Of a DNA stretch of 40,541 nucleotides, positions 13,097 to 29,031 are shown one piece after another. The position numbers and the translations under genes were made by a program. This DNA comes from Defluviitaleaceae bacterium (GTDB lineage: Bacteria; Bacillota; Clostridia; Lachnospirales; WRAX01). Under the pieces are notes generated by a model. It had not been told where the DNA came from and searched no databases. It saw only the letters and a list, made by a program, of their open reading frames with translations. The DNA lies in assembly GCA_009780485.1 (NCBI GenBank), contig WQZZ01000007.1:1-40541 (forward strand). The letters run 5' to 3'. Numbering within the stretch: the stretch's first letter is position 1; the number at the start of each line of letters is the position of its first letter.

Positions 13097-13118
13097 GTTC
13101 AAAGCCCCCTTAGGTTCT

Positions 13119-13148
13119 ATTTTACGCCACAACCCAACAAAAGTCAAC
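13119..13148 (-). promoter_or_regulatory. Sigma-A promoter of the YheC/D-like gene
   Basis: Minus strand TTGACT (13148-13143), an 18-nt spacer and TAAAAT (13124-13119). It places the transcription start just upstream of the AGGGGG ribosome site and the TTG start at 13096. Confidence 0.55.
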
Positions 13149-13205
13149 AATTGCAATGGATATTTTTTTGTGGCAGATGCAAAATATCTAAAAGGATGTG
13201 ATTTG

Positions 13206-13925
13206 ATGAAATTAAAAGGCTTACTTGTTGTGGCGTTTATGGTGCTATTGCCCTCCCTGCACCCTGCAATTATAGAAACGCCAATCTATGCCCAAATTGT
13301 GACTGATGGAGATTTTTACAAAGACAAAACCTTGCGACAAGCAGTGGGTCAAGTTTTTGTAGGGGATATTGTTGAAGTGCTGGAGGATTATTCTGGCGTG
13401 GTTTACCGCATTTCTACTGAAAGCAGTAGTGGGTGGATTGGGGCAAAATTTCTGCTAATTGAAGATGAGTTGCCCACCGATACCACCATCTTAACTCCGC
13501 AACAACTGGAGGGATTTGTAAATGATGGTGCATACGAAAGTCGCACCAAATATTTAATTTTGGTGGACATTAATCGCCAAAAGACCCATGTTTTCCAAGG
13601 TGAGGTAGGTGGATGGTCGCTTGAAAAATCCTTTGACTGCTCTACTGGACTAAACACTTCCCCGACAACCCGTGGAGAATTTAAGCTGACCGAACGTGGC
13701 GAATGGTTCTACAGCCACAGGTTGTCCAGTGGTGCTAAATATTGGATACGGTTCAATGGGCATTTCCTTTTTCACTCCACCCCTATGGACGAAGGAAGGA
13801 ATTTGATTGCAGAGGAAAATGTGGTAGGTGAAAAACGCTCCAGCGGTTGTGTTCGCTTACTTTTGCCAGATATTAAATGGATTTATGAAAATGTAACGGA
13901 CGGGACGACGGTGGTTATCATATGA
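13206..13925 (+). CDS. Secreted L,D-transpeptidase (YkuD family) with SH3-like domain
   Basis: L,D-transpeptidases make 3-3 peptidoglycan cross-links or attach proteins to the wall using a catalytic cysteine. The 239-residue product has a signal peptide (MKLKGLLVVAFMVLLPSL), a short SH3-like region (~30-85: VGQVFVGDIVEVLEDYSGVVYRI ... GWIGAKFL), and a YkuD domain starting YLILVDINRQKTHVF. The motif is FHSTPMDEG ... KRSSGCVRL: the catalytic Cys and Arg are present, but the common SHGC reads SSGC. The open frame begins at 13170, but AAAGGA lies 9 nt before the ATG at 13206. The next gene follows 27 nt downstream and is probably co-transcribed. Confidence 0.85.
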   Translation: MKLKGLLVVAFMVLLPSLHPAIIETPIYAQIVTDGDFYKDKTLRQAVGQVFVGDIVEVLEDYSGVVYRISTESSSGWIGAKFLLIEDELPTDTTILTPQQLEGFVNDGAYESRTKYLILVDINRQKTHVFQGEVGGWSLEKSFDCSTGLNTSPTTRGEFKLTERGEWFYSHRLSSGAKYWIRFNGHFLFHSTPMDEGRNLIAEENVVGEKRSSGCVRLLLPDIKWIYENVTDGTTVVII

Positions 13926-13952
13926 TGGAATAAAAAACATTTGGAGGTCGCC

Positions 13953-14600
13953 ATGTTCTTTTCTCGTTCACAAGGTGTGGGATGTCAATGCCAACAATGC
14001 CAGCCACGCCAGCAGGGTTGGGGTCGTCCGCCTGTCATGCAACCATCACCACAAAGACAACAAATGCAAAACCGACAACAAATGCCAGCATATCAGCCCC
14101 AAAGACAGCAACCACCACAACAAATGCACCCCATGATGCCAATGCAACCACCACAACAACAAGGCAAAGCCCCATATAGTGACCCATCTGTTCGTTTTGA
14201 ACCCATACCCGAAGGAATGTTACCCCCAGGCATGACCATCCCGACAACTGCTGAAGCACCTGCAAAACCCAGCACAGACACTATAAAAAACTTTCTTCAA
14301 GGCGAGGTTAATAGCTTGGCTTTTTATGAAAAGTTGTCAAAAGTAAGCGAAACTTACAAAGAGCGAGTTTTGGAGCTTATAAGCCACAAGAAAAGCGGAA
14401 ACCCACTTTTGCTACAGGCTAATGTAACCGAAGAAACCAAAGTGGATGAAGTGGACGATTTTGCCAGCGGAATTTCCCACGCCCTTTTGCAAGAAAGCAG
14501 GCAACTACGGGAAATGACAAAAATAAAAGACGGAAGCATTACCCCCGTCCTGCTGGCTAATAAAATTGCAGACATTGCCCATTTAATGTCATTACAATAA
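13953..14600 (+). CDS. Gln/Pro-rich protein with helical (ferritin-like?) C-terminus
   Basis: GGAGG lies 5 nt before the ATG at 13953, so the upstream in-frame TTG at 13941 is rejected. The 215-residue product begins with MFFSRSQGVGCQCQQCQ, a Cys-x-Cys-x-x-Cys cluster. A low-complexity Gln/Pro/Met region follows (to ~residue 80). The C-terminal ~110 residues (IKNFLQGEVNSLAFYEKLSKV ... YKERVLELISHKK ... ISHALLQESRQLREMTKI) are helical and recall the ferritin-like bundles of Clostridia proteins, although I see no full EExxH di-iron set. There is no signal peptide. Spore-coat proteins often combine Gln-rich stretches with such helices, so a coat role is possible but unproven. It ends inside the end of the convergent gene (9-nt overlap). 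Confidence 0.65.
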   Translation: MFFSRSQGVGCQCQQCQPRQQGWGRPPVMQPSPQRQQMQNRQQMPAYQPQRQQPPQQMHPMMPMQPPQQQGKAPYSDPSVRFEPIPEGMLPPGMTIPTTAEAPAKPSTDTIKNFLQGEVNSLAFYEKLSKVSETYKERVLELISHKKSGNPLLLQANVTEETKVDEVDDFASGISHALLQESRQLREMTKIKDGSITPVLLANKIADIAHLMSLQ

Positions 14601-28704: not shown

Positions 28705-28741
28705 TGTACGGTGGGGGGCTTCCCCTGCCGTACATTTTTTT
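28705..28741 (+). terminator. Intrinsic terminator of the MutS2-type gene
   Basis: TGTACGG...GGGG pairs with CCCC...CCGTACA across a short loop, followed by seven T. It begins 2 nt after the stop codon. Confidence 0.9.
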
Positions 28742-28752
28742 GTCAAAATAAC

Positions 28753-28781
28753 TTGACAAACTTCGCTGGCGGTGTTACAAT
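28753..28781 (+). promoter_or_regulatory. Sigma-A promoter of a noncoding transcript
   Basis: TTGACA (28753-28758), a 17-nt spacer and TACAAT (28776-28781). It points toward a long hairpin and a terminator, with no credible coding frame in between. Confidence 0.75.
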
Positions 28782-28822
28782 ACCCACAGTGTCCATCTCG
28801 AAAAGCATGGGTGGCTTGGTAT

Positions 28823-28897
28823 AAAAAAACACGTTGGGTGGTCTATGACTTGAAACCTCAAACCACCCAACGTGCCACCAAGCCGTAAAAACGACCT
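28823..28897 (-). ncRNA. Putative ~75-nt antisense RNA
   Basis: On the minus strand a promoter TTGACT-N17-TAAAAT (-35 28932-28927, -10 28909-28904) starts transcription near 28897. About 25 nt later the perfect 13-bp stem of the same long hairpin is followed by seven T (plus-strand A7, 28823-28829), a textbook terminator in this direction only. The transcript would be fully complementary to the plus-strand RNA. Confidence 0.45.
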
Positions 28898-28903
28898 AGT
28901 GAT

Positions 28904-28932
28904 ATTTTACCTCACCTAGGCTTATTAGTCAA
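28904..28932 (-). promoter_or_regulatory. Convergent sigma-A promoter in the ncRNA locus
   Basis: Minus strand TTGACT (28932-28927), a 17-nt spacer, TAAAAT (28909-28904). It faces the plus-strand promoter at 28753-28781. Confidence 0.6.
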
Positions 28933-28967
28933 CCACTAAAATTTCCAAATTCGCCTTTACTGACTTT

Positions 28968-29001
28968 AACCGCATTGCTTCCAAAGCTTTGGCGGTTTTT
29001 T
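28968..29001 (+). terminator. Intrinsic terminator before the aspS promoter
   Basis: AACCGC (28968-28973) pairs with GCGGTT (28992-28997), with an inner palindrome CCAAAGCTTTGG, followed by a T run. It would end the plus-strand ncRNA. Confidence 0.6.
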
Positions 29002-29002
29002 G

Positions 29003-29031
29003 TTGCGTTTGTCCTTGTGGCGTGGTATAAT
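29003..29031 (+). promoter_or_regulatory. Promoter of aspS
   Basis: TTGCGT (29003-29008), a 17-nt spacer and TATAAT (29026-29031), about 35 nt before the aspS start. The open frame from 28975 includes this promoter, so its N-terminus is not translated. Confidence 0.7.

Follow-up and report, generated by a model that had tools for sequence, protein, structure and literature searches.

The window analysed here, a 40,541-nt stretch of DNA from a Defluviitaleaceae bacterium (contig WQZZ01000007.1), carries two promoters that face each other across a long hairpin. We assign a probability of about 0.6 to this locus belonging to a dispersed set of cis-antisense leader modules whose hairpin loops set copy-specific recognition. 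The forward promoter would drive a structured RNA, which would lead into a small gene as its 5′ leader in most copies and terminate as a ~214-nt non-coding RNA in the window copy. The facing promoter would drive a ~75-nt antisense RNA terminating at the U-tract of the hairpin. The anatomy, the number of copies, the covariation, the strand bias of wobble pairs and the hypervariability of the loops are seen in the sequences themselves; we infer that these RNAs are transcribed and pair, that pairing represses the gene, and that divergence of the loops insulates the copies. The two RNAs would share a long stem, and an antisense RNA would find mainly its own leader because the loops differ between copies. 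A second dyad, HP2, is proposed to be opened when pairing extends into its first bases. In many copies the freed 3′ arm of HP2, or neighbouring sequence, could then mask the Shine-Dalgarno site and lower translation, and collisions between polymerases from the two facing promoters may contribute.

Facing promoters and hairpin of the window copy

The element sits between a gene that we take, from its translation, to be mutS2-like and a downstream gene whose identity as aspS is backed by an AspRS comparison. The promoter of the leader or mRNA (28753–28781, plus strand; TTGACA-17-TACAAT, 11/12, with an extended −10) predicts a plus RNA start near 28788. It is faced by the antisense promoter (28932–28904, minus strand; TTGACT-17-TAAAAT, 10/12). 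Both were found where an earlier note on this DNA had placed them, with the same 17-nt spacers, and they are the top two sites of the promoter scan between 27500 and 30500. The inverted repeat that the note had reported between them was located as a perfect 13-bp inner stem (28830–28842 and 28862–28874) and an 8-bp outer stem (28813–28820 and 28877–28884), both recovered by inverted-repeat search; the 5′ arm of the outer stem also pairs in the plus RNA fold, and the inner stem is borne out by the covariation and wobble counts given below. The inner stem encloses a 19-nt loop (28843–28861), hypervariable and copy-specific in loop comparisons. The 5′ arms are separated by an A-rich internal loop (28821–28829), the minus strand of which reads as the U-tract that would terminate the antisense RNA. 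The predicted antisense RNA, its ends placed from promoter and U-tract, would span 28823–28897 on the minus strand (~75 nt), a hairpin with a U7 end. The run of seven T after the hairpin is present on that strand only, as had been claimed.

HP2 (28895–28920), recognised by comparison of copies and covarying among them, has arms at 28895–28902 and 28912–28920 that flank the antisense −10. The location of the minus −10 inside this conserved dyad had been overlooked in the earlier note. A terminator-like repeat read from the sequence (28968–29001, plus strand) would end the plus RNA of the window copy, matching the idea that this RNA has a terminator of its own. It was missed by the terminator scan because its loop exceeds the loop limit of the scan. 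The repeat stands at the position where most copies have a small gene; no gene or ORF follows the window copy, which agrees with the reported absence of a toxin frame. The terminator of the mutS2-like gene (28705–28734, plus strand; terminator scan) is predicted to isolate the element from upstream transcription, and aspS has its own promoter, identified by eye (29003–29031, TTGCGT-17-TATAAT).

Against shuffled sequences the minus RNA of the window copy folds at z = −7.2 and the plus RNA at z = −3.9. The window has a single instance of facing promoters of at least 10/12 over an inverted repeat of at least 11 bp, and 100 first-order Markov sequences of the same length have none. A covariance search against Rfam gave no match at gathering score in the window, where the note had allowed for a known cis element of aspS, and in 20 other loci the matches were limited to a tRNA and an L10 leader. 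Identity with 6S RNA or an aspS leader was rejected, there being no gathering-score match, and microRNA-like matches in the window lay far under gathering and were ascribed to chance. Conserved association with aspS was also rejected: in the five relatives with enough upstream sequence (L009, L010, L011, L013 and L015) the element is missing upstream of aspS.

Distribution, anatomy and spread of the repeat family

A DNA search with the window element identified eight more places in its own genome (2.04 Mb, 169 contigs, 86% complete), and the eight copies that were compared (the window copy and seven others) had identical anatomy throughout. Covariance model R1 was built from those eight copies and R2 from 47 copies. 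R2 matched 79 places in the own genome at E ≤ 0.001; 75–80 is a fair range for the number of copies, because some matches are contig-edge fragments and likely assembly duplicates (e.g. L110/L144, which have one common loop). Searching the genome and its relatives, as the earlier note had suggested, thus disclosed a large repeat family where a single locus had been described. Eight of fifteen relatives from the same family gave 67 R2 matches (12, 9, 1, 1, 23, 11, 9 and 1), one of which (G002:C27, minus strand, 6.7e-4) is an opposite-strand echo. With the own genome counted, 9/16 genomes in the family had matches, and the copies span five genera. Across the order, 9/295 genomes matched at 1e-5, eight being from the same family and one doubtful; across the class, 1/391 genomes matched, namely the own genome, under the stricter filters that large searches use. 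No convincing match outside the family was found among these 295 and 391 genomes. The L203 match, from another family of the order (E 8.6e-6), is located where a short gene ends and probably arose by chance. No match was found in known phages or plasmids, and IMG/VR pattern matches except L213 and L215 lacked the anatomy of the element.

The nearest named genomes in the AspRS comparison are Defluviitaleaceae MAGs, which judging by PMC7024585 and isolate names probably come from termite guts. PMC7024585 reports 67 Defluviitaleaceae MAGs from termite guts; the terms "repeat" and "small RNA" are absent from its main text as available.

Scripted analysis covered 111 copies: 79 own-genome loci and 32 from relatives (36 fetched, with four duplicates removed). 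The common order was forward promoter, long hairpin and facing promoter inside HP2, usually followed by a ribosome site ahead of a small gene, with the antisense −10 located in the HP2 loop. A plus promoter of at least 10/12 was present in 106/110 copies (one copy begins at a contig end), against 2.3% of 150-nt background stretches. The corresponding values for the antisense promoter were 103/111 copies and 1.7% of 109-nt stretches, and both promoters reached this score in 101/111 copies (73 own, 28 from relatives). At least four T among the first six nucleotides after the hairpin were seen on the minus side in 92/111 copies and on the plus side in 2/111. Loop length was 18–23 nt in 99/111 copies. 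Recurrence of these parts in most of the 111 copies strongly supports, at the level of sequence, the sense/antisense RNA pair proposed in the earlier note, and its minus member has the look of a short, terminated antisense transcript.

With automatic calling, 81/111 copies were followed by an ORF that either had at least 40 codons or ran off a contig end, a count that contains some dubious TTG starts. Recurring products were small AbrB/MazE-like proteins (one type matching Pfam PF04014 at 4.9e-7, another matching PHROG 4681 "antitoxin" at 2e-13), a ~65-aa protein family with no Pfam matches, and secreted proteins that carry copper-amine-oxidase-N and NPCBM domains. AbrB/MazE-like paralogs are numerous in one genome (L147, L156, L160, L164, L170, L171, L177, L184 and others); some are apparently two-domain, many have a CPSCGR end, and a toxin partner is not evident. 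In a subfamily comprising L173, L174, L179, L180, L181, L187, L188 and L190, all RNA features are retained and no convincing gene follows; some members (e.g. L181) have a second forward promoter-like site with a spacer resembling that of the antisense promoter.

Dispersal on this scale could also mark a MITE- or cassette-like repeat, mobile or selfish and present in many copies, whose promoters and hairpin either promote its own spread or are carried along without any regulatory role. Two copies (L218 and L219; G000 contig C14) lie inside the structural gene block of a prophage whose genes include terminase, portal, head, tail, tape-measure and holin families, and IMG/VR lists matching sequence as viral. 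Homologous units of ~240–840 bp often start just 5′ of the plus −35 and extend beyond the gene, although some pairs start further upstream, and copies are found at synteny breaks relative to genus relatives. Terminal repeats or target duplications, by contrast, were not evident by eye at the unit ends of 19 pairs. Constraint at the RNA level (the minus-RNA stem and near-consensus promoters) extends over five genera, and a ribosome site and gene follow most copies; these also speak against spread as the sole role of the element, a reading we consider unlikely. It is compatible with the cis-antisense leader module, as the element may be both mobile and regulatory. Synteny with two same-genus genomes breaks at the element at L222:7850–8672 and 13104–14117 and at the mutS2–aspS junction of the window. 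A same-genus comparison yielded no empty site, synteny being broken at the copies.

Stem structure, loop divergence and predicted masking of the ribosome site

In the alignment of 47 copies, 97.6% of inner-stem cells were paired and 9/9 pairs had two-sided changes; for the outer six pairs of HP2 the values were 94% and 5/6, and the inner part of HP2, scored as a third helix, had only 62% of cells paired. These counts lean towards the structure, since the alignment was fitted to a related one. The covariation score for the 47 copies was 0.677, compared with 0.230 for shuffled (0/500) and at most 0.116 for slid alignments. Wobble pairs add strand information, in that an A–C mismatch in the plus RNA is a G–U pair in the minus RNA. 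Across inner-stem pairs 6–11 there were 31 minus-RNA wobbles and 4 plus-RNA wobbles in 107 copies (L191 and L113 were omitted, and two others failed the 5-bp anchor). Extending the count to pairs 6–13 in 96 distinct arm pairs gave 54 minus versus 9 plus wobbles (p = 6e-9), though pairs 12–13 are confounded by often falling within the A/C-rich loop. Covariation and the minus-strand wobble bias together indicate that the antisense hairpin structure is under selection. As deviations in the inner stem are mostly minus-RNA wobbles, we conclude that the stem is kept chiefly for the minus RNA, as one would expect if an antisense RNA terminated there. The outer six pairs of HP2 had no strand bias (11 plus wobbles versus eight A–C and one C–A cells), for which reason HP2 may be a DNA operator instead of an RNA hairpin.

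The loop diverges faster than its surroundings. Among own-genome pairs, 25 are at least 90% identical in HP2 and at least 85% identical over the 80 nt that follow; their mean identity was 90% in the stems, 83% in the linker, 77% in the upstream leader and 62% in the loop (54.5% for shuffled loops), and the loop was the least similar segment in 20/25 pairs. Comparison of 26 paralog pairs gave 84.7% identity at fourfold sites in the ORF downstream (596 sites) and 62.5% in the loops; in L162/L168 the fourfold sites were 21/21 identical and the loops 50%. Loop identity is lowest at the ends (0.32–0.38) and highest mid-loop (0.65–0.73), with boundaries set by a scorer permitting plus wobbles. Such divergence suggests selection for private recognition. 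Relaxed constraint with local mutation could partly account for it, because the leader upstream of the stem varies too.

The window loop is unique in the genome within three mismatches, and a trans target for it was rejected, the sole genome match being the loop itself. Four loops have another at most two edits away, and one such pair (L151/L164) is within a single genome; any insulation would therefore be incomplete. A mini-hairpin within the loop was no better than shuffles. YUNR U-turns were rejected as proof of kissing, their excess being too small (plus 72 versus 64 shuffled, minus 94 versus 88, of 102).

The effect of antisense binding on the Shine-Dalgarno site was modelled by folding 67 gene-bearing leaders under constraint; all had a called start, a promoter of at least 10/12 and a consistent layout, and five loci were omitted by name. 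The antisense RNA was modelled from 7 nt after its −10 and covers the first bases of the HP2 5′ arm. Mean predicted accessibility dropped from 0.35 to 0.27 upon binding, with shifts of more than 0.1 downwards in 29 and upwards in 8 of the 67 non-independent copies; the effect was absent or reversed in 38/67. The strongest falls were predicted where the HP2 3′ arm continues into CCUCUUUU facing AGGAGG (L095, L100, L119, L125, L126, L131, L136 type), with L095 going from 0.22 to 0.01, and also for the METIPRRLD type (L147, 0.84 to 0.11). The remaining leader types showed a small change or the opposite direction (L148, L142). Shortening the antisense 5′ end by 6–12 nt abolished the effect (8–9 down, 8–10 up); lengthening it by 3 nt gave 32 down and 7 up. 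These models make lowered translation the preferred, though putative, outcome of antisense pairing.

Control at the level of transcription only, with HP2 as an operator at the antisense promoter or as a leader attenuator and with an irrelevant, drifting loop, appears improbable. It would fit an HP2 that flanks the antisense −10, covaries and wobbles without strand bias, and a leader that varies 5′ of the stem as well. Drift is harder to reconcile with loops that outpace fourfold sites yet hold their length in nearly all copies, and the predicted Shine-Dalgarno effect requires an antisense 5′ end that reaches HP2.

Relation to known antisense systems

Hairpin-loop antisense control is known mainly from plasmids and from few chromosomal loci. 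The proposed cis-antisense leader module would resemble ColE1 RNAI/RNAII, R1 CopA/CopT, pIP501 and pMV158 RNAII in setting a short hairpin antisense RNA against a leader or pre-primer. The likeness to plasmid control raised in the earlier note holds in working principle, as the one-sided terminator, retention of the minus-RNA stem and hypervariable loops suggest. Unlike plasmid copy-control systems, the element is present in tens of chromosomal copies in one genome, each with its own loop, and mostly precedes AbrB-like or other small genes instead of replication genes. In plasmid counter-transcript RNAs, loop changes give rise to new incompatibility groups, according to the available text of PMC4485353 and PMC9458437. 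By analogy we propose, tentatively and at somewhat less than even odds, that the own genome holds a natural library of 75–80 mutually insulated antisense riboregulators: a dispersing cassette whose loop would diversify after duplication, giving each small, often AbrB-like regulator gene a private switch. If so, the family would offer a natural experiment in how RNA–RNA specificity diverges and in how many antisense pairs can coexist per cell, as well as a ready set of candidate orthogonal regulators. Coexistence of antisense pairs has so far been addressed by engineering, through ColE1 loop libraries (PMC9458437) and chimeric attenuators (PMC3753616).

The second likeness drawn in the earlier note, to type I toxin–antitoxin loci in which the minus RNA would be the antitoxin against a small toxic peptide of the plus RNA, did not survive and is very improbable: small ORFs lie downstream (that of L169 is a 54-aa hydrophobic ORF) and facing promoters with overlapping RNAs recur in par/Fst (PMC7472228, as available), but the main ORFs are AbrB/MazE-like, soluble and helical-looking, or secreted stalk-domain proteins, many copies including that of the window lack an ORF, and the U-tail is one-sided (92 minus versus 2 plus of 111). 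The RNAs of par/Fst overlap at a terminator hairpin between convergent promoters; here there is no Fst-like toxin, the terminator is one-sided and the mRNA would run through the hairpin to the gene. With two defining features failing, the toxin and the bidirectional terminator, the element is not of par/Fst type.

ArrA, in the dnaA 5′ UTR of Bacillus subtilis, stems, as the predicted antisense RNA would, from a facing promoter in a chromosomal 5′ UTR, and it lowers gene expression (PMC12112137). It is a single locus, and the available text of PMC12112137 mentions neither a repeat family nor a hypervariable loop. A literature search, most subscription journals being outside its coverage, found no description of a family such as this one, and for that reason is weak evidence of novelty.

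REP/REPIN palindromes are also present as many dispersed hairpins per genome (PMC3116915, as available), whereas the present copies amount to entire transcription units that combine two promoters, covarying stems and genes. A separate ~101-bp palindromic repeat family of the own genome (GGTAGGGGCGGGCATTGCCCGCCCCTACC type, e.g. L222:791–891), scattered over many G000 contigs, looks more REP-like than the antisense element does, and its palindromes often flank antisense elements.
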